NCBI RefSeq assembly: GCF_020524355.2
Contig: NZ_CP129019.1
Location: forward strand, 1,922,001 to 1,986,000
DNA length: 64,000 nucleotides
DNA from: Mesobacillus subterraneus
GTDB taxonomy: Bacteria > Bacillota > Bacilli > Bacillales > Cytobacillaceae
Reading direction: 5' to 3'
Of this stretch, positions 932 to 17,082 are shown in pieces; position 1 is the first letter of the stretch, and each line of letters begins with the position of its first letter. A program made the position numbers and the translations under genes. The notes under the pieces are model-generated. The model worked only from the letters and a program-made list of their open reading frames with translations, was not told where the DNA came from and searched no databases.

Positions 932-951
932 ATACTAACTAGTAGGTATGT
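932..951. promoter_or_regulatory. Palindromic operator a (candidate TetR site)
   Basis: ATACTAACTAGTAGGTATGT, an imperfect inverted repeat centred on ACTAGT, sits in the 56-bp gap between the two acyl-CoA dehydrogenase genes, 30 bp upstream of the ATG at 902. Very similar palindromes occur at 5293, 13922 and 17063. It resembles (from memory) the PfmR-type box TACCGACCGNTNGGTN of a fatty-acid TetR regulator in Thermus. Inference: operator of the TetR protein at 13994-14557. Confidence 0.6.
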
Positions 952-958
952 CGATATC

Positions 959-2103
959 CTAATATTCTTTTTCCAGTTGTGCCGCTATGATATTTTTCTG
1001 GATTTCGGAGGTGCCCTCGTAAATCCTCGTAATTCGGGCATCCCTGAAAAATCTTTCAACAGGATAATCAGCTATATATCCGAGTCCGCCATGGATTTGC
1101 ACTGCTTTATCGGCGACCCTGTTGTATACCTCTGATCCATAAATCTTTAGCATGGCAGCTTCCTTGATGACCTTCTTGCCGGAGTCCACCATCAAGGCAA
1201 CACGGTATGTAAACGACCGGAGCGCTTCGATTTCAACCGCCATTTCCGCCAGCATATGGCTGACTGCCTGATGCTTGATAATTGGTTTCCCGAACTGGAT
1301 TCTTTCTTTGGCATAGACAACAGACATGTCGAGGAGCTTTTGGCAGGATCCCAAATTTCGCGCTGCAAGGCCTGCCCTTCCGTTGGCGAGTATTTTCAAG
1401 GCATTCACATAGCCCTGTCCTTCCACGCCAAGGACGTTTTCAACAGGTACTTCGCAATCCTCAAAAACCAGTTCGGCAGAGTGCGAACCCTTTAGACCCA
1501 TCTTCTTTTCCATTTTGCCAAGCTTGAAGCCAGGAAAGTTTTTCTCGATGATGAAGGAAGTGATTCCCTTTGCCCCTTTTTCAGAGTCTGTCACTGCCAT
1601 CACTGCGAAAACACTCGCATCTAATGCATTCGTTATATAGTGCTTCAAACCATTCAGCACATATTTATCGCCTGTTTTCACCGCTGTTGTTCTTAAATTT
1701 GCCGCATTCGAACCGGCATCAGGTCTGTGAGGGCAAAGGCACCGATTTTCTCTCCGCTGGCCATAGCAGGCAAATAGTTTTGCTTTTGCTGCTCATTGCC
1801 CATCTCGACAATTCCAACTGTGCCTATTCCGGTGTGGGCGCCAATCAAAGTCGTATAGCCATTATGCGTCTGGCCAATTTCCTCATACAGTGCACATTTC
1901 TCCACCATGCCGATTCCCAGTCCGCCGTATTTCTCCGGTATGCTTAATCCGAAAAGGCCCATCTCCCTGGAAAGCTGGATGATGTTTTCCGGAATTTTGT
2001 CCTCAGCTTCGATCTGCATCGCAACAGGCTCGATTTCACTCTGGATAAAATCACGCACATTTCTTTTTAACGCCATTAAGTCCTCGGCAAAATCAAAGTT
2101 CAC
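959..2103 (-). pseudogene. Acyl-CoA dehydrogenase (short/medium-chain type), frameshifted
   Basis: Full-length acyl-CoA dehydrogenase (~380 codons) split into two frames. GTG at 2103 opens MNFDFAEDLMALKRNV, followed by the N-terminal domain with IPEKYGGLGIG. The frame breaks at the FAD-binding loop: ALTDLMPVRM should read ALTDPDAGSNAANLRTT. This requires one more G in the GG at 1722-1723. The second part (to 959) has VQIHGGLGYIADYPVERFFRDARITRIYEGTSEIQ with the loop catalytic Glu of IYEGT. It lies upstream of the preceding dehydrogenase, with operator a in between. A single-base deletion in a short G run fits either an assembly error or recent inactivation. Confidence 0.85.
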
Positions 2104-2190
2104 TTGTATTTAACACCTCGTCTCACCTATATTCTGATAGAATTCGAGTTTTTGGGCTTAAGAAATTTACTTTTATAAGAGGATGGAAGC

Positions 2191-2313
2191 AGATATTCCT
2201 GAGTTTTTGTAGATATTCCTGAAACTCGCGATTTTATTCCTGAGTTTTTCGTTATATTCCTGAAAGCACGTTTTTTATTCCTTAAAATCTCGTTTTATTC
2301 CTGAATCTGATCA
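2191..2313. repeat. Six-copy degenerate direct repeat (ATTCCTGA unit, ~21 bp period)
   Basis: The intergenic stretch holds six copies of ATTCCTGA (one as ATTCCTTA), spaced 19-22 bp apart, with AT-rich spacers such as GTTTTT and TTTT. It is located between an acyl-CoA dehydrogenase and the MaoC gene. A second array with the same period but a different core (TTATTGGCGA) is at 52171-52270. No ORF explains it. Confidence 0.7.
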
Positions 2314-2327
2314 GAACCTATAGTAAT

Positions 2328-2353
2328 AAACCCAGCAAGTTTTTGCCGGGTTT
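2328..2353 (-). terminator. Terminator of the MaoC operon
   Basis: On the minus strand AAACCCGGCAA pairs with TTGCTGGGTTT just after the stop of the MaoC gene at 2361; the following TTTATTA is only moderately T-rich. Confidence 0.6.
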
Positions 2354-2360
2354 AATTGTA

Positions 2361-2768
2361 TTAAGAAGCATAGCGTTGATACAGGACATCTCCCTTAATG
2401 ACTTCATTGCCATTTTGATTGATGGCTCGAACATGGAACCTTAGGATATTATCATTTTCCTCTGCAAGCTCTGCCTGAAGAGTGACGACATCATTCAGGA
2501 ACACCATACCTTTGAAACGAATCGTATAATCCTGAATAAATCCTTCCTCATAAAAGTCGGTAAATAGCTTTGCCAGGCTACCCATTGTCCACATGCCGTG
2601 AGCAATGATTCCCGGCAGGCCCGCCTTTTTCGCCTCTTCATCGATTGTATGGATTGGATTGTAATCTCCCGAAGCACCAGCATATTTAATCAGGGTAATC
2701 CGGTCGACAGGTTCCAGTTGAATTTCCTTAAGGGCCTCGCCTACTTTCAATTCTGCTAAGCTATTCAT
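2361..2768 (-). CDS. MaoC-like (R)-hydratase subunit
   Basis: 135-residue hotdog-fold hydratase of the MaoC family, predicted to hydrate a 2-enoyl-CoA. The hydratase-2 motif is visible as YAGASGDYNPIHTIDEEA (residues ~29-46), with the catalytic Asp and His, followed by GIIAHGMWTMG. ATG overlaps the stop of the upstream FAS1-type partner by 4 bases (ATGA), so translation is coupled. The two single-hotdog proteins probably assemble as a heteromeric double-hotdog dehydratase, as known for split MaoC pairs in steroid and fatty acyl-CoA pathways. The substrate cannot be told from sequence. Confidence 0.85.
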   Translation of the reverse strand: MNSLAELKVGEALKEIQLEPVDRITLIKYAGASGDYNPIHTIDEEAKKAGLPGIIAHGMWTMGSLAKLFTDFYEEGFIQDYTIRFKGMVFLNDVVTLQAELAEENDNILRFHVRAINQNGNEVIKGDVLYQRYAS

Positions 2769-3214
2769 CCAATCAGCACCTTCCTTACCGCTTCTGTGAT
2801 AATGACGGTTTGTGTAGACGTAAAGACCATCATTCCCATTTCGTCCTCACCGTTGCTTTCTAACACAAGGAAGCCCATTTCACCCTGTGTCCCTTTCTTT
2901 TCAAAGTAATTTTTAATCACCGAATGACAAGTTATTTCTTCACCTACAAACAGAGGGCGTTGGTACTGGTAAGTCTGCTCCCCGTGGATCAGGCCTTTAT
3001 TAGGAAGATTCAGTCCCTCGATTGTCCCATAGTCAAAAACTCTTGGAAAAGTAGGCGGGGCAATGTTCCTGTTATATCTAGAGTTTTTACCAGTCTCCTC
3101 ATCAATGAAAATCGGATGAAGATCTCCGATGGACTCAGCAAATTTCTTGACAGCGCCGCGTTCCACCATGTTTTTAACTTTATTTGATTGCTTGCCTATA
3201 TGCTCTTTGAACAC
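2765..3214 (-). CDS. MaoC N-terminal (FAS1-like) dehydratase subunit
   Basis: 149 residues matching the N-terminal hotdog domain of split MaoC dehydratases (FAS1-like dehydratase domain): VERGAVKKFAESIGDLHPIF near the N-terminus, then APPTFPRVF and LIHGEQTYQYQRPLFVGEEI. This half normally binds the acyl chain and lacks the catalytic Asp/His pair, which its downstream partner supplies. The start is GTG at 3214 behind GAGGTGA. It lies 17 bp after the SDR gene and overlaps the next gene by 4 bases, in the unit acyl-CoA dehydrogenase, SDR, FAS1-like, MaoC. Confidence 0.82.
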   Translation of the reverse strand: MFKEHIGKQSNKVKNMVERGAVKKFAESIGDLHPIFIDEETGKNSRYNRNIAPPTFPRVFDYGTIEGLNLPNKGLIHGEQTYQYQRPLFVGEEITCHSVIKNYFEKKGTQGEMGFLVLESNGEDEMGMMVFTSTQTVIITEAVRKVLIG

Positions 3215-3231
3215 TGACTGTTCACCTCACA

Positions 3232-4000
3232 TTAATTTTTAGGACCGCCAGCTACGTAAATGACCTGGCCGCTGACAAATGACGATTTTTCATCTGCAAA
3301 GAAGGCAACTGCATTGGCGATATCAGCTGGTTTTCCGCTCCTGCCGACCGGAATGCTCGCCACACTGTGTTTAATCAGGTCATCGAACGGGATACCAATT
3401 CGAGCCGCTGTTTCTTTCGTCATTTCCGTCTCGATAAAGCCTGGAGCTACCGAGTTAGCTGTGATCCCATAACGGCCAAGTTCGATTGCAAGTGTTTTAG
3501 TGAAACCCTGCAGGCCGGCCTGCTTTTGCAGCCGCATAGTTTGCCTGACCCCTGTTTCCAAGTGCAGAGGTTGAAGAAATATTGATGATTCGTCCATACT
3601 TCTGTTCAACCATGTACTTCTGGGCTGCTTTTGCTGCATTGAATGAACCTTTCAGATGGACATCCATGACGGTTTGCCAATCAGATTCTGTCATTTTGAA
3701 AAGCATATTATCGCGGATGACACCTGCATTGTTCACAAGGATGTCGACAGAGCCAAACGTGTCATGAACTTCTTTTACTGCCTGTTCAACTTGTTCGGAA
3801 TCGGTAACATTCGCTACTCTGGAGTAAACTTCATATCCTTTCTCACGCAACTCGTTCGTTGTCTCCGCCAAGGCTTCCTCATTCAGGTCGATAAAAGCAA
3901 CTTTTGCTCCTTCCTCGGCGAAAAGCTGAACAATTCCTTTTCCGATTCCCCTGCTGCCTCCCGTCACAAAAGCAACTCTTCCTTCAAATCTTCCTGCCAT
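3232..4000 (-). pseudogene. SDR-family 3-oxoacyl reductase/hydroxyacyl-CoA dehydrogenase, broken by a 4-bp duplication
   Basis: FabG-like short-chain dehydrogenase (~255 codons). The ATG at 4000 follows GAGGAGGAGCGAGA, a better start than the upstream in-frame one. The first part shows TGGSRGIGKG for NAD(P) binding, NNAGV, and the catalytic Ser and YxxxK (NYAAAKAG). Three residues after the catalytic Lys the frame fails: GCAGGCC is followed by an extra GGCC, giving GGCCGGCC at 3513-3520. Removing four bases restores AAAKAGLQGFTKTLAIELGRYG through to VIYVAGGPKN. A tandem GGCC duplication is less typical of a homopolymer read error than the other breaks here, so it may be a real mutation. Confidence 0.85.
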
Positions 4001-4026
4001 TCTCGCTCCTCCTCTATCTAACAAAC

Positions 4027-4040
4027 TGTTAACGCTTACA
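4027..4040. promoter_or_regulatory. cre-like site
   Basis: TGTTAACGCTTACA matches the catabolite-responsive consensus TGWAANCGNTNWCA at 13 of 14 positions. It lies between the acyl-CoA dehydrogenase stop and the SDR start. Inference: CcpA repression of the catabolic operon; an internal roadblock position is possible. Confidence 0.4.
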
Positions 4041-4048
4041 ATTCTCTA

Positions 4049-5224
4049 TTAGACAAACTGGCCGATTTTCACATGCCCTTTTAAAAGATCCCTGGCAATG
4101 ATCATGCGCTGGATTTCATCAGTGCCGTCGTAAATTCTCCAAAGTCGCGCTTCACGATACCAGCGCTCGATTGGTAATTCTCTTGTATAGCCCATACCGC
4201 CATGAATTTGCATGACGCGGTCGACAACCCTGTTTCCCATGTTGGAGCCATACAATTTTGCCATTGAAGCCATATGCCTGTTATCCTCACCGGCATCCAG
4301 CGTATAAGCGGCATTGAGAACGAGCCATCTTGCTGCTTCGATTTCCACGGCTGAATCGGCAATCATCCACTGTATAGCTTGTCTTTCAGCAATCGGTTTT
4401 CCGAAAGTAATACGCTCTTTTGAATAGTCAATTGCCATCTTCAACAAGCGTTCTGCGGATCCGATCGCCCTTGCGCCAACAACCCATCTTGCAAACCCAA
4501 TCCATTCCAAGCCTAATTTATAGCCGCCATCGACTTCGCCGAGGATATTTTCCTCTGGTACGCGGACGTTATCAAACACCAGACCAGCCGGCCCCCATTC
4601 GCCCATCGTATGTATGAATTCTGATTTCCAGCCCATATCCCGGTCAACAATAAAGCAAGTCACACCATCACGGCCCGTGGCACGGTGTTTTTCTTTATCC
4701 GTGATGGCAATGACCATGACAAAGTCTGCTTCATTTCCGCCTGTGATAAAAGTTTTCTCGCCATTAAGGACCCATTCATTGCCGTCCTTTACAGCGGTCA
4801 TTTTTATGTTTCGTGTGTCCGATCCTGCGCCTGGTTCTGTCATCGCGAAGCACGACTTTTTTTCCCCGTTGATCGTAGGGATTAAATACTTTTGTTTCTG
4901 CTCTTCATTGCCATAATAGAGAATATTGTCTGCTGAACCGCCAAATTGGAAGGGCACAAATGTTTTAGACACTTCCATGAGGACGAGAGCCATCATCATT
5001 TGTCCCAAATCTGCACCGCCATATTGTTCCGGTGTATTGATCCCCCAGAATCCTGCTTCTTTAGCTTTCATCTGAAGTTCATGCATTTTACCGGGAGAAA
5101 GGCTTGGACGTCCTTCTCTTTCATTTCTTAAAACCTCATTTTCCAATGGAATTAATTCTTTTTCTACAAATCGGCGAATCGTTTTTTGGATCATTTTTTG
5201 TTCTTCTGTAAGGCGTAAATGCAT
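4049..5224 (-). CDS. Acyl-CoA dehydrogenase with Asp at the catalytic-loop position
   Basis: Intact 391-residue FAD acyl-CoA dehydrogenase, first gene of the unit that continues with the SDR and MaoC pair. ATG at 5224 follows AGGAGTGACTTGA. Visible motifs are CFAMTEPGAGSDTRN (~residues 131-145), the middle beta-domain, and VMQIHGGMGYTRELPIERWYREAR. At the loop that usually carries the catalytic Glu (IYEGT), it reads RIYDGTDEIQ, so Asp replaces Glu. Position by position the helix-G alternative Glu of isovaleryl/long-chain enzymes also seems absent (FARWVV). Asp at this site is seen in some carnitine-CoA and ACAD11-type enzymes, so activity is plausible. The 5293 operator precedes it. Confidence 0.9.
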   Translation of the reverse strand: MHLRLTEEQKMIQKTIRRFVEKELIPLENEVLRNEREGRPSLSPGKMHELQMKAKEAGFWGINTPEQYGGADLGQMMMALVLMEVSKTFVPFQFGGSADNILYYGNEEQKQKYLIPTINGEKKSCFAMTEPGAGSDTRNIKMTAVKDGNEWVLNGEKTFITGGNEADFVMVIAITDKEKHRATGRDGVTCFIVDRDMGWKSEFIHTMGEWGPAGLVFDNVRVPEENILGEVDGGYKLGLEWIGFARWVVGARAIGSAERLLKMAIDYSKERITFGKPIAERQAIQWMIADSAVEIEAARWLVLNAAYTLDAGEDNRHMASMAKLYGSNMGNRVVDRVMQIHGGMGYTRELPIERWYREARLWRIYDGTDEIQRMIIARDLLKGHVKIGQFV

Positions 5225-5292
5225 TCAAGTCACTCCTATTGTAATCTTATATTCTGATAGTCTATTAAAAATGTATGACTGGATTACTCATT

Positions 5293-5314
5293 ACATACCT
5301 ACCGGTCGGTATGT
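5293..5314. promoter_or_regulatory. Palindromic operator b (candidate TetR site)
   Basis: Near-perfect 22-bp inverted repeat centred on ACCGGT (core ATACCTACCGGTCGGTAT), 69 bp upstream of the acyl-CoA dehydrogenase start. Only one symmetric pair is mismatched. It is the best-conserved of the four sites. Confidence 0.65.
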
Positions 5315-5361
5315 TACTTTTATTTTAGAGTGAAATTTCTGAAAAATCAAGTTATTTATAG

Positions 5362-5385
5362 AAAAAGCAGGGAATACTCCCTGCT
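5362..5385 (-). terminator. Terminator after the DUF3892 gene
   Basis: AGCAGGGA-4 nt-TCCCTGCT hairpin; on the minus strand it is followed by TTTTTC and overlaps the end of the gene. Confidence 0.8.
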
Positions 5386-5695
5386 AAAAATGTGGTAAAT
5401 GATCAAAGTTATTTTCTTTCATTCCATCAGGTTCGCTCCTGAGAATATCACGACCATATTTGTGGAATACATCTACATGTGCCAGCTTTCCCGCTTTAGC
5501 CTCAGATAGTGCAGAGATATAATCGAGCTCCCTTCCGCTTTCTGTTTTAAAGGCAATCAGGTCGCCATCATCGTTTTTCCTGACGGCAACAATTTGTTCT
5601 TTTCCCGGTTGTTGTGGGTTTGCTTCAAGTTCCCCTTGTCCATGGCTTTGTTGTTTGTATTCATTGTAAATCTGGTTAAAATCTTTGTTTTCCAT
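5384..5695 (-). CDS. DUF3892-type small protein
   Basis: About 103 residues. The C-terminal part (IVAVRKNDDGDLIAFKTESG, then DYISALSEAKAGKLAHVDVF) is the DUF3892 pattern found in small Bacillaceae proteins; the N-terminus is polar and Gln-rich (NEYKQQSHGQGE). ATG at 5695 is preferred to GTG at 5704 because GGGAGGTGG lies at proper spacing. No function is established. It is a single-gene unit with its own terminator between the catabolic operon and superoxide dismutase. Confidence 0.75.
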   Translation of the reverse strand: MENKDFNQIYNEYKQQSHGQGELEANPQQPGKEQIVAVRKNDDGDLIAFKTESGRELDYISALSEAKAGKLAHVDVFHKYGRDILRSEPDGMKENNFDHLPHF

Positions 5696-5754
5696 AAAAA
5701 CCACCTCCCGAACATATGTTTAGTGTTCGCAACGAGGAGGCTTTTATACAAAAA

Positions 5755-5774
5755 AGAGTGACTGAAGTCACTCC
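5755..5774 (-). terminator. Terminator of the superoxide dismutase gene
   Basis: GAGTGACT-GA-AGTCACTC stem followed on the minus strand by TTTTTT; it overlaps the last residues' downstream bases. Confidence 0.8.
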
Positions 5775-5775
5775 T

Positions 5776-6675
5776 CTAAAATGGCTGCCATGCCAAAGTC
5801 CTGGCTTTATTAAAACGCTGTTCGACTTCTTTCCAGTTAACGACGTTCCACCAGTTTTCGACATACTTTGCTCGATCGTTTTTATACTGAAGATAATAGG
5901 CGTGTTCCCAAACATCCAATACGAGTAACGGAACTACATCCCATTGTGATAAATTTTGGTGTTTTTCTGCCTGGAGGATTTCCAGCCTGTGAGAACGTGG
6001 AGACCAAACAAGGATTGCCCACCCAACCGCCTCAACATTTTTCGCTGCTTCAGAAAAATGATTTTTGAATTGATCAAAGCTGCCAAATGAATCGTTGATC
6101 GCTTTTCCGAGCTGTCCTTTTGGCAAGCCGCCCCCTTTTGGACTCATGATGCTCCAAAAGATCGTATGCAGATAATGGCCTGCACCATGGAACGCAGCTT
6201 CTCTTTCCCAATGTTTAATCAATCCGAAATCACCAGTTTTTCTTGCCTTCTGCATTTCTTTTTCGGCTTTGTTCAAACCATTTACATAGCTTTGGTGGTG
6301 CTTAGAATGGTGCAGCTTCATGATTTCTTCAGCAATGACAGGCTCAAGTGCATTATAAGAATATGGCAAAGGCGGCAGTTTATGTCCTCCAATTGGTACC
6401 GGTTGGAGTCGCTGGGATTGCTGCCGATCATTCTCGTTCTCAGTATCGCTTAAATAATTCGTAAGTTCATCATATAGGTTTCTTGCTTCTGCATATAAAG
6501 ATTCCTCATCGAAGGAACTTTCCACTTTTGCTTTCAGTGTTAAAATGTTTTCTGCCCACTGCTCTAATGCGGTTTCATCTGTTGATTCTCTATGCTGCCC
6601 TTTTACAGAAGCCCATTTTGCCTCCATCTCCCTGCACCATTCCAGCAAAGAATACCTGAACCAATACCCATTCAT
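5776..6675 (-). CDS. Fe/Mn superoxide dismutase with N-terminal extension (SodF-like)
   Basis: Dismutates superoxide. The C-terminal ~200 residues are a complete Fe/Mn SOD: ligands in HHSKHHQSYV and FHGAGHYLHTIFW, then LDVWEHAYYLQY. About 100 extra N-terminal residues (YWFRYSLLEWCREMEAKW and an acidic, helix-prone stretch) precede LPPLPYSYNALEPVI; B. subtilis SodF has a comparable extension of unknown role. ATG at 6675 follows GGGGAGGGATTATT; the 8 upstream in-frame codons overlap the ribosome binding site and are excluded. Probably monocistronic. The extension has no signal peptide, so it is cytoplasmic. Confidence 0.9.
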   Translation of the reverse strand: MNGYWFRYSLLEWCREMEAKWASVKGQHRESTDETALEQWAENILTLKAKVESSFDEESLYAEARNLYDELTNYLSDTENENDRQQSQRLQPVPIGGHKLPPLPYSYNALEPVIAEEIMKLHHSKHHQSYVNGLNKAEKEMQKARKTGDFGLIKHWEREAAFHGAGHYLHTIFWSIMSPKGGGLPKGQLGKAINDSFGSFDQFKNHFSEAAKNVEAVGWAILVWSPRSHRLEILQAEKHQNLSQWDVVPLLVLDVWEHAYYLQYKNDRAKYVENWWNVVNWKEVEQRFNKARTLAWQPF

Positions 6676-6755
6676 AATAATCCCTCCCCAAAACTGCATC
6701 CATAATCAAAATATGAATAGACTGGATTGGTGATTACAGTATTTTGGATTAAGGC

Positions 6756-6785
6756 TTACTTTGCTGCATGAAAAAAGTTTATAAT
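6756..6785 (+). promoter_or_regulatory. Sigma-A-type promoter for the M42 peptidase
   Basis: TTACTT, 18 bp, TATAAT (6780-6785), 38 bp before the start codon. Confidence 0.5.
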
Positions 6786-6823
6786 ATGAATTATGTGAAG
6801 ATTTATATGAGAGGAGTTTTATA

Positions 6824-7873: not shown

Positions 7874-8068
7874 GGATCTTTTCTAAAAACGTTGTTGCTA
7901 TTGCTGCAAAATGTAAGGGAATGACCTAGTTAACTTCGCTAAATGGACGATTAAGGCGAGAAAAGGGCTTGCAAACTAGATATCGCCCAGCAAAATGCCT
8001 TATCATACGTTAAAAACGCTTTAGGATTTTAACAACAATCATAACGAAAACAGCCTTTTATAAAGTTT

Positions 8069-8108: not shown

Positions 8109-8156
8109 CGTATCTGGGAATGAGGGCAGGTTCGTGCACCCTATGCAGATAGTTGC

Positions 8157-9375
8157 TTATTTTATAGCCTCTTCCGTTACGGACTCAAACGGCCATGCTG
8201 GAAGCATATTGGATAATGGCTTATCGACTCGATAGCCTAACACATACTCTCCCCTGCATGATTGTGTGGATTTCTCGCGTTCCTTCATAAATGACTGGTG
8301 CTTTGGCGTTCCTTAAATATCTTTCAACTGGATACTCATTCGAAAAGCCGTAAGCACCATGAATTTGGACAGCATCATTGGCAGCTTCATAAGCATAGTC
8401 GCATGCTTGCCACTTGGCCAGGGAAGTTTCCCGGGTATTTCGCTTCCCCTGGTTTTTTAATGAGCCTGCACGGTAAACGAGCAACCGTGACTGTACCAGG
8501 CCTGCTTCCATCCTGGCAATCATCTGCTGGACAAGCTGGTGCCTTCCAATCTCTTTGCCAAAGGTGCTTCGTTCATGGCAATACTTTACACTAGCTTCAA
8601 GACTTGCCAAATTGTACCGCATGCGCCAGCAGCTACTGTAAAGCGGCCGTTATCCAATGCAGACATCGCAATTTTAAAGCCATCTCCTTCTTGTCCTAAC
8701 AAATTTTCCTTCGGCACCTTTACATTGTCAAAGTAGATTTCACCAGTATTTCCCGCCCTGATCCCCAGTTTTCCTTTGATCGCTTTGGACGAAAAACCTT
8801 CCCAGGTTCTCTCCACAATAAATGCAGATATACCATGGTGTTTCTTGCTTTTGTCACTATAAGCAAATACTAGAAAATGGTCTGCAACATCACATAATGA
8901 TATCCAAGTTTTTGATCCATTGAGTACATAGTAGTCTCCTGCATCACTCACCGTTGACTGCATTGCGGCCACATCAGAACCTGCATTTGGTTCAGTATAG
9001 GCCGAACGCTGCAACCTTCCGTCCTTTTGACTGAGGCACCAGGTACTTCTGCTTTTGCTGCTCATTTCCCCACTGGAGCAAGGTCATGCTGTTAAGCCCC
9101 GTGTGCACAGAGACAGCAGTCCTGAATGCTGTGTCTCCGCGCTCAAGTTCCTCACATACAATTGCAAGGGAATTATAGTCCATGCCGCTGCCTCCATATT
9201 GTTCGGGTATACAAACACCCATGAGCCCCAAATCAGCAAGCCGTGATAAAATACTAGTTTCAAAATGCTGTTTCTCATCCCAATTCTTTATATTAGGCAT
9301 GATTTCTTTATCTACAAAGCTTCTGACCGTTTTTCGCAATAGATCTTGTTCTCTTGTAAAATCAAAATTCATCAT
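8157..9375 (-). pseudogene. Acyl-CoA dehydrogenase broken by three indels
   Basis: Short/branched-chain type acyl-CoA dehydrogenase. ATG at 9375 follows GGGAGTGGTCACCC. The protein reads MMNFDFTREQDLLRKTVRSF through VAAFGL, then needs one base removed at 8996-8999 to give [14 protein letters not shown] second break near 8606-8610 (one base missing before GCAAGTCTTGAAGC) separates [10 protein letters not shown] from [22 protein letters not shown] third, an extra base near 8250, follows HTIMQG; without it the C-terminus continues EYVLGYRVDKPLSNML to TAA at 8157. The loop Glu (VIYEGTREIH) is present. Three lesions in 1.2 kb make this the strongest pseudogene candidate. It is the last gene of the thioesterase-led operon. 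Confidence 0.85.
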
Positions 9376-9665: not shown

Positions 9666-10592
9666 TCACGTCAGTTTGTAATACAGAACTGATTCCCGCA
9701 GCTCTTTCTTAACTTCCTCTCGGTCTATCATCAAATCAAGATGACCCTGTATTTGCGAGAGACCTAGAAATACGATTCCACCTTTCAAATGCGGGTAGAC
9801 CTCCAGGCAAATCTCGTAAACATTTTTATCACTCTCTTTTAAAATCTGGTGTATTTGCTGGCAGCGTGCATCCTGCTGAACCAATCTTTTATCGATGAGC
9901 TCAATGTGCTGTGTGAAGGGTTTACCATGTCCTGAATAACACGTTCCTAGCTCTCTGCCTCTTGAACGGATAAGGGATTCCCTGTATTGAATCAAGGGAG
10001 TTGGACGATGCTTCTTCCCTTGCACAGGAGGTTCGATAAAGGAGTTGACGGCCAGCTCCGGAATTATATGGTCCCCGACAAATGTTATCCCCTGCTGTTC
10101 ATCTACAAGAAGGATATCTGTTTGGCTATGGACGGGAACATGCAACACACTGTGTGGTCTTCCACCTATGTATACATCATCACCTTCCTTGAGATAATGA
10201 ACATCTCGCCAAATTTCTTCCTTGTATATCCGCGCATGCTGATGAATAGAAGGGTCAGCACCGCATTGCCGGATAAAATCATTGAAAAATTGATTGATTC
10301 TATTAAACTCTTTTTCTCCTCCTGTGACCACAGGCCTGGCAAGCTCATGTACATGCACGGGAAGGCCGGCTTCCTGTTGAATCAGGCTGACTCCTCCACA
10401 ATGGTCCGTATGCATATGGGTAACAATCATATGGTCAAAGTCTGTGAACTTAAGATTATGTACCTTTAACAGAGATTTAAGCTGGTAAAAGGATTCCTCA
10501 CCTGGATTTCCCGTATCTACAAGCGTTGCTGTTTCACCAAGGACGGCATACACGACAACGATCCCTTCAGAAAAAGGCGAATCAAGAATCAT
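9666..10592 (-). CDS. MBL-fold metallo-hydrolase
   Basis: 308-residue metallo-beta-lactamase-fold hydrolase: HMHTDHCGG (THxHxDH metal motif, ~residues 58-68), later GHGKPFTQH and a C-terminal helical domain (YPHLKGGIVFLGLSQIQGHL). Such proteins often hydrolyse thioesters such as glyoxalase II substrates. The start is unclear. The ATG at 10592 has no close ribosome binding site, while AAAGGGG lies ~27 bp upstream. The in-frame codons before it read HITKIIPMIL, which resembles the usual N-terminus (KIxxPTPF type), so a one-base error near 10614 may hide the true start. It lies between the quinone oxidoreductase and the triple-broken acyl-CoA dehydrogenase. Confidence 0.8.
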   Translation of the reverse strand: MILDSPFSEGIVVVYAVLGETATLVDTGNPGEESFYQLKSLLKVHNLKFTDFDHMIVTHMHTDHCGGVSLIQQEAGLPVHVHELARPVVTGGEKEFNRINQFFNDFIRQCGADPSIHQHARIYKEEIWRDVHYLKEGDDVYIGGRPHSVLHVPVHSQTDILLVDEQQGITFVGDHIIPELAVNSFIEPPVQGKKHRPTPLIQYRESLIRSRGRELGTCYSGHGKPFTQHIELIDKRLVQQDARCQQIHQILKESDKNVYEICLEVYPHLKGGIVFLGLSQIQGHLDLMIDREEVKKELRESVLYYKLT

Positions 10593-10629
10593 CGGTATTA
10601 TTTTTGTGATGTGTCATCGCCCCTTTCTA

Positions 10630-10650
10630 TTAGAATCAGGAGCTGAACGT
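10630..10650. terminator. Hairpin between remnant and MBL gene
   Basis: GAGCTGAA-5 nt-TTCAGCTC stem with little T-run on the minus strand. It sits right after the gene remnant at 10674; possibly an old terminator or RNA-processing hairpin. Confidence 0.35.
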
Positions 10651-10673
10651 GATTCAGCTCTTAATTAACTGTT

Positions 10674-10790
10674 CTACGAAATTACCTTTGCCGAAGTGCC
10701 ATTGAATAAGCCCGCTGCATGCACGCGACGCATTTAATCAATTTGCGATTCAGTCACTCCATATTCTCTAAGCTGAGGAATAAGACCCAG
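10674..10790 (-). pseudogene. C-terminal remnant, phosphotriesterase/amidohydrolase-like
   Basis: Minus-strand translation gives LGLIPQLREYGVTESQID, stop, then MRRVHAAGLFNGTSAKVIS, stop. This resembles the C-terminus of phosphotriesterase/amidohydrolase-family proteins (pattern LRExGVTExQI...NPxxLF). The TAA at 10734-10736 interrupts it and no upstream part remains, since the 3' end of the remnant region abuts the quinone oxidoreductase gene. It looks like a deletion scar in the operon. The family assignment is tentative. Confidence 0.4.
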
Positions 10791-10830
10791 TTACCGTGTT
10801 AATACTTCTCACTTAAGCCTCACCTCTTTA

Positions 10831-11805
10831 TTAAGGTTTTAAAATAAGCTTTCCCTTTGTCTGCCTGGATTGCAAAAGTCGATGGACCTCAGCAGCTTGA
10901 TTCAGTGAATATACGCCTCCGATTGTCAGTTTTAGTTGACCCTTAGATAAATATTCCAACATTTCAGTCATACTGGATTGAATCAAAGCTGGATTTCTCA
11001 TGATTTGCGGAAGGAAAAAGCCTATGACAGACTGATTCCTGACCATCAAGGATGAAGGATAAAAGCGGCTTTGCTCGCCGCTGGCAACTCCATAGATGAC
11101 CAGCCGTCCAAATGTGGCAAGACATTTCAACGTTTTATTGAAAATCTCGCCTCCTGCCATTTCCAGGGCGACATCAACACCTTTTCCTCCTGTCGCTTCG
11201 AGGACCTTTTCCTCCCATCCTTGTTTAGTGTAATTGATAAGTACATCCGCTCCCATATCAGCAGCCAATGCCAGTTTATCATCTGTGCTAGCAGTCGCTA
11301 TGACCTTGCTTGCGCCTGATAGCTTCGCGAGTTGGATAGCGAGAGTGCCTACTCCACCGGCCGCTGCATGCACCAGTACTGTTTCACCTTTTTCCAGTCG
11401 TCCCATCGTTTTCAGGATGTGATAAGCACTCAGTCCTTGAAGCGGGAGTGCGACTGCCTGCTCAAATTCCATAGAGTCCTGCAAAGGAATCAACCCGCGG
11501 CTGTCAGCCAGAGCAAACTCAGCGTAACCACCAGATTCGATCAAGGTCACGATGCGGTCACCTGCCTGGACATTTGTGACTGATTCTCCTGTTTCAACAA
11601 CCACTCCCGCAATCTCCGCTCCTGGGATAAAGGGCAGTTTAGTTGGAACCACATACTGTCCTTCTCTTCTTGCCGTGTCCGCATAATTGACACCTATTGC
11701 ATGGATTTCAATTAACACTTGATGACCTTTAGGAACTGGGCGTTCCATCTCTACTAATTGGAGAACCTCCGGACCGCCATATTCTTTCAGTTGGATTGTT
11801 TTCAT
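10831..11805 (-). CDS. Quinone oxidoreductase-like MDR protein
   Basis: 324-residue medium-chain dehydrogenase/reductase of the NADPH:quinone reductase (zinc-free) type. The GroES-like domain carries GVNYADTARREGQY and PGAEIAGVV; the Rossmann part has VLVHAAAGGVGTLAIQLAK and ends RQTKGKLILKP. Cys zinc ligands are absent. Likely a cytoplasmic NADPH-dependent reductase of enones, quinones or enoyl thioesters. ATG follows AAGGAGGCTAATC, 11 bp after the enoyl-CoA hydratase stop, so it is co-transcribed. Confidence 0.88.
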   Translation of the reverse strand: MKTIQLKEYGGPEVLQLVEMERPVPKGHQVLIEIHAIGVNYADTARREGQYVVPTKLPFIPGAEIAGVVVETGESVTNVQAGDRIVTLIESGGYAEFALADSRGLIPLQDSMEFEQAVALPLQGLSAYHILKTMGRLEKGETVLVHAAAGGVGTLAIQLAKLSGASKVIATASTDDKLALAADMGADVLINYTKQGWEEKVLEATGGKGVDVALEMAGGEIFNKTLKCLATFGRLVIYGVASGEQSRFYPSSLMVRNQSVIGFFLPQIMRNPALIQSSMTEMLEYLSKGQLKLTIGGVYSLNQAAEVHRLLQSRQTKGKLILKP

Positions 11806-11816
11806 GATTAGCCTCC

Positions 11817-12608
11817 TTAATTGCCTGTGAATTTTGGCTTTCTTTTTTCTTTGAAGGCTGCAATGCCTTCTTGATGATCTTCAGTGGATACCATCATTGT
11901 CTGGGTGATCCGTTCCTGCTCAAGAATTTCTTCCAGTGTTGCTGTCATGGAATGGTCGACCAGCTTCTTGATCATTCCATATGTTCTGGTCGGTCCAGTT
12001 GCCAGTTGTCCAGCTAGCTTTAGTGTTTCTTCCTGCAACGTTTCCACTGGCACAAGATGGTTTATTACACCTAGCTGGTACAAACGTTCTGCTGTAATTG
12101 GTTCCGCCGTGAACATGAATTGTTTAGCCAGATGTGGACCTACTAGCCTTGGGACAAAATAGGAACCCCCTCCATCCGAGACAAGGCCTACCTGCGAAAA
12201 GCTCAGCGCAAATTTACTGTCATCCGCTGCGATAATTAAGTCACACGCAAGAACAAGGTTAAATCCTGCACCTGCAGCAAAACCATGAACCGCTGCGATG
12301 ATTGGCTTCTCTGTATTCTTCATTTCAAGGATACATTCGTTCAGCCTGCCGATATGGTCATAAACACCGACTGCATTTGCCTCCCCCATCGTTTTTACAT
12401 CGCCGCCAGCACTGAATGATCGCCCGGCGCCGGACAAAACGATGACCTTTACCTCCGGATCGTTTTGTGCATTTCTTAATGTATCGGTCAGATTAAGAAT
12501 CATATCTGGACTGAAGGCATTCAAGCTCTCCGGTCTGTTTAAGGTCAAGGAAAGTACCGTCCCGTTTTTGTTGATAATTAAATGCTCACTCGTTTTAACA
12601 TTCGTCAA
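11817..12608 (-). CDS. Enoyl-CoA hydratase/isomerase, PaaG-like
   Basis: Crotonase-fold protein of ~263 residues. The oxyanion-hole motif SGAGRSFSAGGDVKTM and AAVHGFAAGAGFNLVLACD are clear. The Glu usual in hydratases at the second position (CELA) is replaced (FNLV), and an Asp occurs in LVSDGGGSYF. That pattern resembles PaaG-type isomerases, so the reaction may be double-bond isomerisation rather than hydration. TTG at 12608, six bases after AAGGGTG, is the best start; the GTG three codons upstream overlaps the ribosome binding site. It lies in the thioesterase, SDR, crotonase, MDR operon. Confidence 0.87.
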   Translation of the reverse strand: MTNVKTSEHLIINKNGTVLSLTLNRPESLNAFSPDMILNLTDTLRNAQNDPEVKVIVLSGAGRSFSAGGDVKTMGEANAVGVYDHIGRLNECILEMKNTEKPIIAAVHGFAAGAGFNLVLACDLIIAADDSKFALSFSQVGLVSDGGGSYFVPRLVGPHLAKQFMFTAEPITAERLYQLGVINHLVPVETLQEETLKLAGQLATGPTRTYGMIKKLVDHSMTATLEEILEQERITQTMMVSTEDHQEGIAAFKEKRKPKFTGN

Positions 12609-12647
12609 AGCAATCACCCTTTCTTGTAATTTAATAGAATCATATAC

Positions 12648-13427
12648 TTATTTAATCATCCAGCCGCCATCCACGAGAATGTCAGAACCGGTCATGTAAG
12701 AAGCTTCGTGTGAAGCGGCAAAAGCTATCACATCCGCAATCTCATCAGGATTGCCAGCTCGCTTTAGAGCAGTATTTTTTCTAATTGCTTTTACAAATTG
12801 TTCATTCTTCATCCCCTGTTCTGTCAGAGGGGTTTCCACGAAGCCAGGTGAAACTGAATTGACCCTGATTCCAAAGGAGGCCAACTCCAATGCTAATGCC
12901 TTTGTAAAATTGATGACACCAGCTTTTGCTGCACTGTAATGAGGGATATGGGCACCAGCCTGGTGTCCGGATAAACTGGCAACATTGACAATAGAACGGT
13001 TTTGAGGAAAATTCCCTTCCCTCTCAGCACTATCTGCCATGAGTTTTCCAAGCATTTTTGAGACAAGGAAAACACTTTTCAAATTGGTATTTTGTACAAA
13101 GTCCCAATCACTTGCTGAAGTGTCCATGATTTTTGAGTGGACCGAACCGCCTGCATTATTGACAAGGACATGCAATTCGCCAAATTGCTCCTCCATGTAG
13201 TGGGCTAGCTCCCTAACATCCTCCTCATCAGTTACGTCAGCTGAAAAGATTTCTTCCCTGGGAAGCTTATGGAAATCATTTATTTCCTGCGCAGCGCTCT
13301 CAAGTTTAGATTTTGTCCGTCCGACCAGTATCACTTTTGCTCCCTCACTGGCAAACCGGAATGCCGCCGCTTTTCCGATTCCGCTCCCCGCTCCTGTAAC
13401 AAGAACTACCGTTTCTGCGAATCTCAT
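12648..13427 (-). CDS. SDR family oxidoreductase
   Basis: 259-residue classical short-chain dehydrogenase: TGAGSGIGKA cofactor motif, NNAGG, catalytic Ser in VNVASLSGH and HYSAAKAG (YxxxK), and the SPGFVETPLT loop. Expected to act on a hydroxyacyl-CoA/ketoacyl-CoA or a related alcohol with NAD(P). ATG at 13427 follows GGAGGTGGCACAG; the longer TTG start at 13442 would include that ribosome binding site and is rejected. It is co-directional with neighbours at short spacing. Confidence 0.88.
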   Translation of the reverse strand: MRFAETVVLVTGAGSGIGKAAAFRFASEGAKVILVGRTKSKLESAAQEINDFHKLPREEIFSADVTDEEDVRELAHYMEEQFGELHVLVNNAGGSVHSKIMDTSASDWDFVQNTNLKSVFLVSKMLGKLMADSAEREGNFPQNRSIVNVASLSGHQAGAHIPHYSAAKAGVINFTKALALELASFGIRVNSVSPGFVETPLTEQGMKNEQFVKAIRKNTALKRAGNPDEIADVIAFAASHEASYMTGSDILVDGGWMIK

Positions 13428-13466
13428 CTGTGCCACCTCCAAAATAAATGCGGATTATTCAGTTAT

Positions 13467-13868
13467 TTAAGCGGGCAATAAATAGCTTTTTAACCCTTCT
13501 TTAAGCAACTCAGGCAATACTTCACTCTTTTGATTTGAAAAATCATAATAGAAAATGATGGCGTTTCCCTTTGCAATCAGCTGCTGTGTCTGGGAGCAAA
13601 CAATGTCATGTTCAAGCTGGAAGCTCTTTGAGCCAATTCTTGAAACATAAGTATTTACCGTTAATAGTTGGTTGAAATAACCCTGGCTGAAAAAATCACA
13701 TTTAGTGGAAGCTAAAATGCATTTCCAGTCATTCAACTTCATGTTGTAGCCTAATAACTCAAAAAAACGGATCCTCGCCTCCTCCAGGTAAATAAAATAA
13801 CTGGTATTGTTAATATGTCCTAGTGCATCCGTCTCACCAAATCGCGCTTGGACCTGAATTTCCTGCAT
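13467..13868 (-). CDS. Hotdog acyl-CoA thioesterase (YbgC/4HBT type)
   Basis: 133-residue single-hotdog thioesterase of the 4-hydroxybenzoyl-CoA/YbgC family. The catalytic motif FGETDALGHINNTSYFIYLEEAR contains the nucleophile/base Asp; family length fits. Likely releases CoA from dead-end or toxic acyl-CoAs. ATG follows AAAGGAGAGATAGA. It is first in an operon with SDR, crotonase, MDR, MBL and acyl-CoA dehydrogenase, and operator c lies 53 bp upstream. Confidence 0.85.
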   Translation of the reverse strand: MQEIQVQARFGETDALGHINNTSYFIYLEEARIRFFELLGYNMKLNDWKCILASTKCDFFSQGYFNQLLTVNTYVSRIGSKSFQLEHDIVCSQTQQLIAKGNAIIFYYDFSNQKSEVLPELLKEGLKSYLLPA

Positions 13869-13921
13869 TCTATCTCTCCTTTATCTGCCAACTAATATAG
13901 TGTTTTGATTCACTATTTTCC

Positions 13922-13941
13922 GTACTAACCAGTTGGTATGT
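13922..13941. promoter_or_regulatory. Palindromic operator c (candidate TetR site)
   Basis: GTACTAACCAGTTGGTATGT, the same palindrome family as sites a, b and d, lies between the TetR terminator and the thioesterase start. Confidence 0.6.
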
Positions 13942-13952
13942 AAATGGCATAG

Positions 13953-13978
13953 AAAGAGGCTTAGCGCTAATAAGCCTC
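13953..13978 (-). terminator. Terminator of the TetR gene
   Basis: GAGGCTTA-7 nt-TAAGCCTC hairpin followed on the minus strand by TTTC, 16 bp after the TetR stop. Confidence 0.7.
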
Positions 13979-13993
13979 TCCCTACATTATTCT

Positions 13994-14557
13994 TCAATTG
14001 ACTTCGATTCCCTTCAGGATCATTTCGACAAAAATCTCGGTCACTTCACGATCAGATACCTTACCTAGTGGATTGAACCACTGATAGCTCCAGTTGGCGG
14101 CGCCAAGTATACCGAATGTAACGATACTAGGATTCAAATCCTTACGGAATTCGCCACTGTCGATTCCTTCTCGGATCAGCCGCTCTACGTTCATCCTGAA
14201 TTGATCCCGCTTTGCGACAATCTGTGCCAGCCTGTCATCACTTAAGTGACGCATTTCCCTGAAAAAGATTTTCGCGGATGCCCCTTTGGATTTGATGCTG
14301 CTGATCAGCATATAAACGATATCAAACAATTTTTGTTTGCTGGGTGACTGTTCTGAGAGAATCTCTTCTTGACGGCCTAATAATTCATCAATATATCTCA
14401 GGTGTATATCCATCAATAATTCTTCTTTGCTGGAAAAATAATAATAAAATGTACCCTTGGTCACTCCAAGTGAGTCGACAATATCTTGGATGGATGTCTC
14501 ACTGAAGCCTTTTTTCTCAAATAATTTAATGCTGTGTGCGGTAATTTTTTCTTTCAC
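13994..14557 (-). CDS. TetR/AcrR regulator of the acyl-CoA catabolism genes
   Basis: 187-residue one-component repressor. Its N-terminal HTH is clear: FEKKGFSETSIQDIVDSLGVTKGTFYYYFSSKEELL (residues ~13-48); the C-terminal half is a helical ligand domain, presumably for an acyl-CoA. It is last in the unit SDR, acyl-CoA ligase, TetR, and neighbours four palindromes that fit a TetR dimer site. It resembles B. subtilis FadR in role, but the operators differ from the FadR box TGAATGANTANTCATTCA as I recall it, so it is probably a separate regulator. Assignment to the palindromes is inference from proximity. Confidence 0.85.
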   Translation of the reverse strand: MKEKITAHSIKLFEKKGFSETSIQDIVDSLGVTKGTFYYYFSSKEELLMDIHLRYIDELLGRQEEILSEQSPSKQKLFDIVYMLISSIKSKGASAKIFFREMRHLSDDRLAQIVAKRDQFRMNVERLIREGIDSGEFRKDLNPSIVTFGILGAANWSYQWFNPLGKVSDREVTEIFVEMILKGIEVN

Positions 14558-14635
14558 TTTGCTGTCCTCACAATCCTACTAGTCTGCACAGAAATTATAT
14601 CATATTTTACCCCCTGTCCCATTAAGCTTAAAGGA

Positions 14636-16249
14636 TTAATTAATTTTCACTTCTTCTCTTAAAGCCCTGCGTAAAATCTTGCCGACGCTTGTCTTTGGCA
14701 GCTGCTCTCTGAATTCGACGATATTTGGAACCTTGTATGCCGCCATATTCTCACGGCAGAATTCCTTGATCTTATCTTCATCTGCTTTTTTTCCTGCTTT
14801 AAGAACGAGAACTGCTTTTACTGCTTCACCCCGGTATTCATCCGGTATGCCAATCACTACAGCCTCCTGTACAGCTGGATGTTCATACAAAACTTCCTCA
14901 ATATCACGTGGATAAATATTGTAGCCGCTCCCGATTATCATGTCTTTTTTTCGGTCGACTATAAATAGATAACCATCTTCATCTACCTTAGCGATATCTC
15001 CTGTATAAAGCCAGCCGTCCCGCAATGTGTTTGCTGTCTCCTCAGGCATATTCCAGTAACCCTTCATAACTTGTGGCCCTTTAAGGATTACTTCCCCCAG
15101 TTCTCCAGCTGGCACTTCTTCTGTCCCTGTTGCCAGGTCGACAATCTTGTATTCAGTTGACGGCATACCGATGCCTACACTTCCAGGCTTTCTTTCGGCA
15201 AAGCTTGGATTGCAATGAGTAGTTGGCGATGCCTCTGAAAGGCCATAGCCTTCAAGGATCTTAGAACCTGTTTTTCTTTCGAATTCTTTTAGCAGTTCTA
15301 CCGGCATAGGTGCACTGCCGCTGTTGCAAAGTTCAATGCTGCCAATACCATACTCCTCGGCTTTCGGGTGGTTCGTTATGGCAACATACATTGTCGGGAC
15401 GCCAGGGAACATGGTCGGTTGCTCATTTTTAATCGTATTCAGAACCTCTTCCAGATCAAAACGCGGCAGCAAAATAATTTCCGCCCCTGTATAGATTGAT
15501 AGATTCATACAGGCGGTCATCCCAAATACGTGGAACAGAGGGATGACTGTCAAGGACCGCTCTACTCCAGGTTTTATGTCATGCTTGAAAAATTCATGGG
15601 ATTGTAGCACATTGGCAAGCAGATTTCGATGGGTCAGCATCGCTCCCTTGGATCTTCCTGTCGTGCCCCCCGTGTACTGCAGCACGGCAACATCCTCTGT
15701 TGGGTTGACATCCACTACCGACGTTCTTCCGCTGCTTTCTGATAAAAATAATTCAAACTTTGTATCTGGTGTAAAATCATGCTCAGAAGGCTGGAGACTG
15801 ACAACGACGATATTTCTTAGTTTAGTAGCAGCCTGAACACTTTTAGCTTTCGCATAAAGCGCATCAAATACGACAATCGTTTCCGCTCCTGAATCATTAA
15901 GGATATATTCAAGTTCACGTTCAACAGACATTGGGTTCACCTGGGTGACAATCGCACCTGCGGTCAATATCCCAAAATAAGAAATGACATATTGAGGACA
16001 ATTCGGCAGCATGATGGCAACCCTGTCTCCAGCTTCCACTCCTCTGTTCTGCAGAGCTGAAGCAAAATGCGTCACAGTCTGGGTCAATTGTTCGTACGTA
16101 ACTTTCCTGCCATAAAAGGATAATGCGTTGTTATGAGGGTACTTCTCTGCAGATTCTCGAAGCATTTGCGGCAAAGATTTTTCAGGAATTGTGATAGTGG
16201 AAGCAATGGAGTCAGGATAATTTGAAAGCCAGACATGTTTCTCGCTCAT
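14636..16249 (-). CDS. Long-chain/medium-chain acyl-CoA ligase
   Basis: 537-residue adenylate-forming enzyme that activates a carboxylic acid with ATP and CoA. The AMP-binding signature is YTGGTTGRSKGAMLTHRN (~residue 190), followed by GYGLSEASP, the hinge GWLYTGDIAKVDEDGYLFIVDRKKDMI, and the C-terminal catalytic Lys in PKTSVGKILRR. ATG at 16249 sits behind GGAGGAAATCAA. It is second in the operon, 39 bp after the SDR. It probably feeds the dehydrogenases of this island; chain length cannot be read from sequence. Confidence 0.9.
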   Translation of the reverse strand: MSEKHVWLSNYPDSIASTITIPEKSLPQMLRESAEKYPHNNALSFYGRKVTYEQLTQTVTHFASALQNRGVEAGDRVAIMLPNCPQYVISYFGILTAGAIVTQVNPMSVERELEYILNDSGAETIVVFDALYAKAKSVQAATKLRNIVVVSLQPSEHDFTPDTKFELFLSESSGRTSVVDVNPTEDVAVLQYTGGTTGRSKGAMLTHRNLLANVLQSHEFFKHDIKPGVERSLTVIPLFHVFGMTACMNLSIYTGAEIILLPRFDLEEVLNTIKNEQPTMFPGVPTMYVAITNHPKAEEYGIGSIELCNSGSAPMPVELLKEFERKTGSKILEGYGLSEASPTTHCNPSFAERKPGSVGIGMPSTEYKIVDLATGTEEVPAGELGEVILKGPQVMKGYWNMPEETANTLRDGWLYTGDIAKVDEDGYLFIVDRKKDMIIGSGYNIYPRDIEEVLYEHPAVQEAVVIGIPDEYRGEAVKAVLVLKAGKKADEDKIKEFCRENMAAYKVPNIVEFREQLPKTSVGKILRRALREEVKIN

Positions 16250-16288
16250 TTGATTTCCTCCATTCAAATATTTCTTAATTTTATATGG

Positions 16289-17041
16289 CTAAAATGTCAG
16301 TCCACCGCCGTCGACTGACAAAGTCGCACCAGTAATAAATGAAGCTTCATCGGAAGATAGGAACAGGACCGCATTGGCGACCTCCTCAGGTGTTCCGATT
16401 CTGCCTAAAGCATTAGCCCTCGAAATAATTGGCCATTTTCGTTCATCATTTTTCCACCCATCGATAATTTGTGTATCGATAACACCCGGGGCGATTGCAT
16501 TTACGCGGATACGATCCTTTCCGTACACTAGCGCAGCATTTTTCGTCAACAGGATGACCCCAGCCTTGGATGCGTTGTAAGCTGCAAGATATTTTTGACC
16601 CTTAATCCCAAGCAAGCTTGAGGTGTTGATGATCGCGCCGCCACTAGCCTTCTTCATCTCTGGAACAGCATACTTAATGCCGAGGAAAACGCTCTTGAGG
16701 TTAATATCTATGATTCTGTCCCAATCCTCTTCCTCTAGATCAACACTTTTAACATCCGGATTTCCTACTCCTGCATGATTAAAGAGAATATCCAGCTTCC
16801 CGAAGTTTCCAACGGTTGCTGAAACGAGTTCTTTCACCTGTTTGGAATCGCTTACATTTGTTTCGTAAAAAAGAGCTGTACCACCCTGTTGTTTAATTAA
16901 ATTGACTGTTTCTTGCCCGCCATCGCCATTTATATCCGCGATAACGATCTGAGTACCTTCATTTGCAAAGCGAAGTGCTGTTGCCCGGCCAATTCCGCTG
17001 GCACCTCCCGTAATGATTGCTGTCTTGTTTTTTAATCTCAT
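16289..17041 (-). CDS. SDR family oxidoreductase
   Basis: 250-residue classical SDR: ITGGASGIGRA at the N-terminus, NHAGVG, the catalytic Ser in NTSSLLG and YNASK, and the C-terminal FITGATLSVDGG. It is expected to be an NAD(P)-dependent hydroxyacyl or alcohol dehydrogenase. ATG at 17041 follows AAGGGGGAATAAA; the 16 codons upstream run into operator d and are excluded. It is the first gene of the SDR, ligase, TetR unit. Confidence 0.88.
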   Translation of the reverse strand: MRLKNKTAIITGGASGIGRATALRFANEGTQIVIADINGDGGQETVNLIKQQGGTALFYETNVSDSKQVKELVSATVGNFGKLDILFNHAGVGNPDVKSVDLEEEDWDRIIDINLKSVFLGIKYAVPEMKKASGGAIINTSSLLGIKGQKYLAAYNASKAGVILLTKNAALVYGKDRIRVNAIAPGVIDTQIIDGWKNDERKWPIISRANALGRIGTPEEVANAVLFLSSDEASFITGATLSVDGGGLTF

Positions 17042-17062
17042 TTTATTCCCCCTTATCCTTTC

Positions 17063-17082
17063 TACTAACCGGTCGGTATGTA
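17063..17082. promoter_or_regulatory. Palindromic operator d (candidate autoregulatory TetR site)
   Basis: TACTAACCGGTCGGTATGTA, with an ACCGGT centre as in site b, 22 bp upstream of the SDR start. It would place the TetR gene under its own control. Confidence 0.65.

Follow-up and report, generated by a model that had tools for sequence, protein, structure and literature searches.

PfmR (TTHB023), a TetR-family regulator of Thermus thermophilus named for phenylacetic and fatty acid metabolism, is a described parallel to the gene cluster analysed here. Its published site is TACCGACCGNTNGGTN, and its sites cover the transcription start in many cases (PMC7022988, accessible part of the paper). 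On the enzymatic side, ACAD10 and ACAD11 and the bacterial Lva enzymes phosphorylate 4-hydroxyacyl-CoA and eliminate the phosphate, a route that lets 4-hydroxy acids enter beta-oxidation (PMC11342911, PMC12440821, both in excerpt). The subject of the present analysis is a 64,000-nucleotide stretch of the Mesobacillus subterraneus genome (GCF_020524355.2, NZ_CP129019.1, positions 1,922,001-1,986,000), referred to below as the window, together with the DNA to its left in the same genome (locus label L039). Four palindromic boxes and a tetR gene lie here among genes of acyl-CoA metabolism. Together they probably constitute a TetR regulon with four PfmR-type boxes and four units, whose substrate is likely a 4-hydroxy, 4-oxo or gamma-lactone-derived acid.

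The boxes, reported in an earlier note on this DNA as near-identical palindromes, are borne out by direct search. The pattern TACYNACYRGTHGGTATG has four exact matches in the window, all on the plus strand (933-950, 5296-5313, 13923-13940 and 17063-17080), and eight matches on both strands at up to three mismatches; 100 shuffles gave 0.97 on average and never more than 5. In the whole genome (4,786,507 bases), exact copies of the symmetrical core TACYNACYRGTNRGTA are found four times, each time at one of the four operators. The whole-genome search proposed in the earlier note thus confines the exact core to the cluster; with the core as given there, 28 mismatched places were found outside it (one with a single mismatch, 27 with two). 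Eight of these 28 were read by eye, with no family search: five lie inside open reading frames of at least 90 aa and three between open reading frames whose first residues look unlike acyl-CoA genes, and none of the eight makes a convincing distant regulon member. A further two-mismatch match to the symmetrical core lies in the left flank (L039:3909). Conservation was followed in 80 named loci, the best of 409 confirmed TetR loci, which span Bacillaceae genera, Planococcus, Sporosarcina, Paenibacillus, Brevibacillus, Aneurinibacillus and Lihuaxuella. When the half-sites were shuffled (up to 60 patterns, 20 of the 80 loci), the average was 0.32 against 25 observed; one such pattern, TACYANCYRGNTRGTA, which is near-identical to the box, scored 15.

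The box matches the PfmR operator, as the earlier note had suspected from its resemblance to the Thermus sequence, and three of the four copies adjoin promoter-like sequence in a simple -35/-10 scan scored out of 12, with 9 of 12 as the lower level; in both respects it has the properties of an operator. On the minus strand, TTGATT-17-TAAAAT (5350-5322) has operator 2 (5294..5313) beginning 9 bp 3' of its -10 element, TTTACA-18-GAAAAT (13944-13915) encloses the 16-bp core of operator 3 (13921..13940) within its spacer, and TTGAAT-16-TATAAT (17121-17094) has operator 4 (17061..17080) beginning 14 bp 3' of its -10 element. The last is one of four promoter matches at the 10-of-12 level between positions 1 and 18000. 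Operator 1 (931..950), the palindrome before ACAD1 and the unit running left out of the window, has no 9-of-12 match close by. Across the 80 loci a promoter match lies near 60 of 110 exact boxes, compared with 24 when the positions are moved by 400 bases (those falling off a locus were skipped). The -10 starts 16-25 bases before the box in 36 of these 60 and lies 10-19 bases after the box start in 10, as at operator 3. The boxes thus show a preference for promoters, frequently directly 3' of the -10; this placement at or just past the promoter, as in the Thermus PfmR sites, is the geometry expected of a repressor.

The gene at 13994..14557 (minus strand) encodes a protein of 187 aa with TetR_N and TetR_C_24 domains, which belongs to the TetR family by both profiles (PF00440, 59.7 bits, cut-off 24; PF17932, 110 bits, cut-off 26.4). 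Its predicted structure is all-helical, and TetR-family structures stand at the top of its fold matches. The occurrence of this protein and that of the box are closely associated. In a family sample of 151 genomes, with orthologues called at E<=1e-50, 72 of the 75 TetR-bearing genomes contain the exact box (mean 3.05 per genome), as do 10 of the 76 others (mean 0.17). The reversed pattern is about equally common in the two groups (0.61 and 0.58 per genome), and base composition therefore does not explain the split. Within the genus of the window the box is found in 17/17 genomes with the TetR and 0/4 without, one of the four being 66% complete. In a second sample, 151 genomes spread over the class, the figures are 19/23 and 15/128, and two further genomes with a weaker TetR match (E 7e-46 and 2e-39) have no box; where box and TetR share a contig (18 genomes), they lie within 5 kb of each other in 17. 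The Fisher probabilities are 7e-28 for the family and 2e-11 for the class. At the level of individual loci, 57 of the 80 have a box of no more than one mismatch in the 300 bases 3' of tetR (49 of them an exact one); each of loci L001-L030 has a box 3' of the gene (29 exact, one with one mismatch). The pairing of this TetR with the boxes, which we infer from their joint distribution, suggests that the neighbouring TetR very probably switches the fat-breakdown block on and off. Among the open-licence papers listed for these subjects, neither binding or expression experiments on the window TetR nor a described regulator of the cluster was found, which is weak evidence of novelty.

The weaker, degenerate operator that the earlier note placed at about 14575, upstream of tetR itself, did not hold up: it is not conserved across 30 TetR loci, its own included. 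Only one of these (L017) has any match of up to two mismatches starting within 150 bases upstream, an exact box that starts 84 bases before the gene. Two variants of the arrangement were seen elsewhere. At L057 (G033:C2:104001-116000) two exact boxes whose starts are 31 bases apart, perhaps forming a tandem operator, lie near a distant TetR of 34% identity. In one genus of the class sample (g57 of family f9), five of seven genomes carry a single identical box, TACTTACCGGTAAGTA, without a TetR of the window type; this box is perhaps read by another regulator.

FadR, the established point of comparison in Bacillus subtilis, is a separate system in this genome. The true FadR gene lies at 814279 (316 bits, over the curated cut-off), and a FadR-type box with one mismatch starts 118 bp before it; the window TetR reaches 64.8 bits against the FadR model NF053878, whose cut-off is 200. 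The B. subtilis FadR box, which we take to be TGAATGANTANTCATTCA, differs from the cluster box. A genome-wide search placed no FadR-type box of up to two mismatches near the cluster, and the single three-mismatch place in the window (6657) is what chance predicts. With no such box nearby and the FadR gene elsewhere, control of the cluster by FadR was rejected. The FadR-independent acyl-CoA regulator proposed in the earlier note is therefore supported from several sides, namely co-occurrence of box and TetR, promoter position, and a separate FadR with a box of its own. The TetR is best taken for a repressor that acts independently of FadR, regulates its own gene and uses an operator of the PfmR type.

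Comparison with PfmR itself shows a resemblance of regulator and operon at some distance. The two proteins are 28% identical over 185 aa, and the PfmR structure 3vpr is the second PDB sequence match for the window TetR, after 3dcf; in a second look at Foldseek's top 1000 fold matches it came first, tied within 1 Z with 3ccy, 5k7h and 3him. The Thermus pfmR operon on pTT27 is preceded by two one-mismatch boxes and encodes TetR, an acyl-CoA dehydrogenase (ACAD), a serine hydrolase, an SDR, MaoC, a thioesterase, an AMP ligase, a second SDR, a second ACAD, a phosphotransferase, a DUF6285 protein and a histidine phosphatase. Its SDR TTHB016 is 51% identical to SDR0 of the cluster, and its first ACAD is 43-44% identical to ACAD2 and ACAD4 of G124, a relative in which the genes are intact. 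In the second ACAD, by contrast, which is 33% identical to ACAD1, the HCMR motif is missing, and the phosphotransferase is 22% identical to the kinase; TTHB015 and TTHB014 were considered as close counterparts of ACAD1 and the kinase and set aside. The Bacillales system would thus work like PfmR, whose box it shares, and the Thermus operon is a parallel rather than an identical one. A Streptomyces plasmid carries three one-mismatch boxes with a TetR of 35% identity no more than 2.3 kb away, so the box may belong to a wider TetR group.

A kinase and a dehydrogenase of the ACAD10/11 type lie at the left edge of the window and beyond it. The kinase (L039:14628-15728) scores 488 bits to 9o56 and 166 bits to the kinase part of ACAD11 (8v3v). 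Its motif is HYDYKLNN (HYD, not HGD), with an Asn five residues past the Asp, the spacing of ACAD11 D220/N225, which places it with the APH-type kinase domains of ACAD10/11. ACAD1 is present as an N-terminal piece (87..902, minus strand, with a frame break between 117 and 172) and a C-terminal piece further left (L039:17519-18109). The former scores 272 bits to 4hr3 and 266 to ACAD11 (2wbi), the next other dehydrogenase standing at 85; for the latter ACAD11 comes first at 140 bits, followed by 4hr3 at 136 and the next at 53. The residues described as specific to ACAD10/11 are the HCMR motif, an upstream Arg and a catalytic Asp (PMC12440821, available portion). In the window genome ACAD1 has both the HCMR-region motif, the Arg of HCMR being seen in the C-terminal piece, and RLADGPDEVH; each of the two motifs is matched in 46 of 47 ACAD1-bearing loci, the HCMR-region motif also in G124, and ACAD1 falls in the ACAD10/11 class by all three features. 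The Asp alone is not diagnostic and was discarded as a lone marker, since ACAD3 (IYDG) and Thermus TTHB015 also have it.

The kinase also follows the regulator. It is present in 73 of the 75 family genomes with the TetR and in 4 of the 76 without; where both lie on a single contig (69 genomes), they are a median of 2 kb and at most 27.2 kb apart. This linkage and the signature residues underlie the reading of the regulon as one of 4-hydroxy-acid or lactone catabolism, and the best reading of the kinase and ACAD1 is that they point to breakdown of 4-hydroxy or gamma-lactone-derived acids. An MBL-fold hydrolase (9666..10592, minus strand), a relative of a Bacillus paraoxonase (8zxg, 138 bits), would fit lactone opening; its place in the regulon is uncertain because of a 238-bp gap, and it occurs in only 4 of the 80 loci. 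Related arrangements appear on other replicons. A Deinococcus sp. NW-56 plasmid (L149) carries an ACAD with the HCMR-region motif, 65% identical to ACAD1 of G124; close to it lie a kinase (45% identical) and an SMP-30/gluconolactonase gene. In this stretch a TetR is not annotated, and boxes are absent even with two mismatches allowed. In Cytobacillus spongiae (L150), a 690-kb replicon entered as a plasmid in its record has, between thiamine/cystine and sulfate genes, the series SDR-ACAD-TetR-thioesterase-kinase-FabG-MaoC-MaoC together with an exact box, which suggests that the cluster moves as a unit.

The lva operon of Pseudomonas putida and mammalian ACAD10/ACAD11 share with the cluster a kinase and an ACAD-family enzyme with HCMR, upstream Arg and catalytic Asp (PMC12440821, PMC11342911, in the portions available). 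Kinase and ACAD are separate genes here, as in lva, and fused in mammals. Compared with lva, likened through LvaA and LvaC by description only, the present set is larger, has an importer and lacks an LvaB-like gene beside the kinase. The regulator of lva is a sigma54 activator, not a TetR protein. Among other acyl-CoA-linked regulators, AibR is 22% identical to the window TetR, and KstR2 of Mycobacterium tuberculosis runs a cholesterol regulon. QsdR of Rhodococcus erythropolis, compared by description only, is a TetR repressor of a lactonase-plus-acyl-CoA-ligase operon that homoserine lactone releases from DNA; the ACAD11 route is absent from the accessible part of its description (PMC6262395).

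Four units, all on the minus strand, make up the predicted regulon, their extents judged from spacing and strand and gene types assigned by NCBIfam and Pfam profiles. The earlier note had each box precede a unit; every box does front a gene, with the qualification that the unit of operator 1 lies mostly left of the window. It begins with ACAD1 and continues with SDR0, a thiolase, the APH-type kinase, a PF04029 protein, an alpha/beta hydrolase, an AMP ligase, LivH, LivM, LivG and LivF; this left half of the regulon, with the ACAD10/11-type kinase and dehydrogenase, is an addition to the earlier account. Operator 2 is followed by ACAD3 (4049..5224), SDR1 (FabG-like, 3232..4024), a MaoC pair (HadA-like/FAS1_DH_region, 2765..3214; HadB-like, 2361..2768) and, after a 257-base gap, ACAD2 (959..2103), whose usual glutamate (IYEGTSEIQ) was read in G124. 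The unit of operator 3 comprises a 4HBT-type acyl-CoA thioesterase (13467..13868), SDR2 (12648..13442), an enoyl-CoA hydratase (crotonase, 11817..12617) and an MDR/quinone-oxidoreductase-like reductase (10831..11805), perhaps then the MBL-fold hydrolase and, with a place no less uncertain, ACAD4 (8160..9372). Operator 4 leads SDR3 (16289..17041, ATG at 17041), a long-chain acyl-CoA ligase (14636..16267) and tetR. Frame changes break ACAD1 (next to a run of seven C), ACAD2 (near 1723), SDR1 (near 3520), ACAD4 (three times, 8251-8998) and the L039 thiolase, all of which are intact in G124; LivM, LivG and LivF (L039 7808-10301), as read in the window genome, look split too. These breaks are probably assembly errors rather than decay. 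Two smaller elements lie in the operator 2 unit: three imperfect 31-base direct repeats (TATTCCTGAGTTTTT..., 41-base spacing) at 2194-2306, between the MaoC pair and ACAD2, and, between ACAD3 and SDR1 at 4027-4040, an exact site TGTAAGCGTTAACA, cre-like by what we take to be the cre consensus. The latter is kept in G124 and occurs in 2 of 19 loci only, both of the window's genus.

Mechanistically, the TetR would act as a dimeric repressor: bound to the four palindromes of the PfmR type, it would stop transcription at the start site or shortly beyond and so control the four adjacent units, its own gene in SDR3-ligase-tetR among them. The controlled enzymes would provide acyl-CoA ligation, a split ACAD10/11-type step (kinase plus dehydrogenase), further dehydrogenases, MaoC-type hydratases, SDRs and a thiolase, with a Liv-type ABC importer on the left. 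The likely substrate is a 4-hydroxy (or 4-oxo, or gamma-lactone-derived) acid barred from ordinary beta-oxidation, and its CoA thioester the likely inducer. A bolder extension is put forward tentatively, with the balance somewhat against it: across the Bacillales this TetR may be the dedicated sensor and repressor of a mobile module for 4-hydroxy-acid (gamma-lactone) catabolism built on the split ACAD10/11 pair, with 4-hydroxy- or 4-phosphoacyl-CoA or a close product as inducer, and Thermus PfmR may belong to the same lineage and bind a similar ligand.

Several observations weigh against the proposed regulon or its substrate. Three family genomes and four class genomes, three of these from one genus, have the TetR and no exact box, and the 15 class genomes with a box and no such TetR mean that the box is not exclusive to this regulator. 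Relatedness of the genomes makes the Fisher values overstate independence, a problem that the class sample eases and does not remove. Fifty of the 110 boxes, operator 1 likewise, have no promoter match in the simple scan, the lead of PfmR in the fold list is a tie of less than 1 Z, and no LvaB-like gene (LvaB being presumably a DUF6285 protein) was found beside the kinase in the left flank. Of the 80 loci, 23 show neither ACAD1 nor kinase in the DNA examined, so the conserved core of the regulator may exceed 4-hydroxy acids. These loci also favour an alternative, unlikely in our judgement and still the strongest rival, in which the regulon is real and local and serves general or branched-chain acyl-CoA beta-oxidation, the ACAD11-type pair being an accessory and the inducer an ordinary acyl-CoA. 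Among partners around the TetR, counted as homologues of 50% identity or more, MDR (48 of 80 loci), LIG (47) and ECH (40) are about as frequent as ACAD1 (47), the APH-type kinase reaching 54, and fold neighbours of the TetR include AibR and FadR, which bind isovaleryl-CoA and stearoyl-CoA, while KstR2 binds cholesterol-CoA derivatives (PMC13176608, Table 1). The kinase is nevertheless the most frequent partner, its distribution follows that of the TetR across the family, and the window genome has only one such kinase (E<=1e-40), inside the regulon.

That another TetR-family protein binds the boxes, the adjacent one being a bystander, is quite improbable: 16 places in the genome do match the FadR TetR profile at E<=0.001, and some genomes have boxes without a window-type TetR, yet box presence tracks this TetR down to the level of the genus, a box typically follows its gene closely, and its relative PfmR binds the same sequence (PMC7022988, in excerpt). 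Still harder to credit is the view of the palindromes as repeats or stem-loops such as terminators. Operator 2 is indeed also flagged as terminator-like on the plus strand, but the boxes share sequence beyond a stem, their position close to gene starts and promoter matches recurs in other genera, and the genome contains no further exact copy. The regulon of four boxes and four units is thus, on genomic evidence, real, local and FadR-independent with strong comparative support; its mechanism would be ordinary, and its interest lies in the link to the split ACAD10/11 route.

Bacillaceae would gain from this regulon a second, compact system of acyl-CoA control beside FadR. It would also connect a repressor of the PfmR type with the bacterial form of the ACAD10/11 route, which in mammals has recently been shown to act on 4-hydroxy fatty acids; this link suggests what PfmR-type regulators sense. 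If the inducer is confirmed, the repressor and its boxes could serve as a biosensor for 4-hydroxy acids or lactones.

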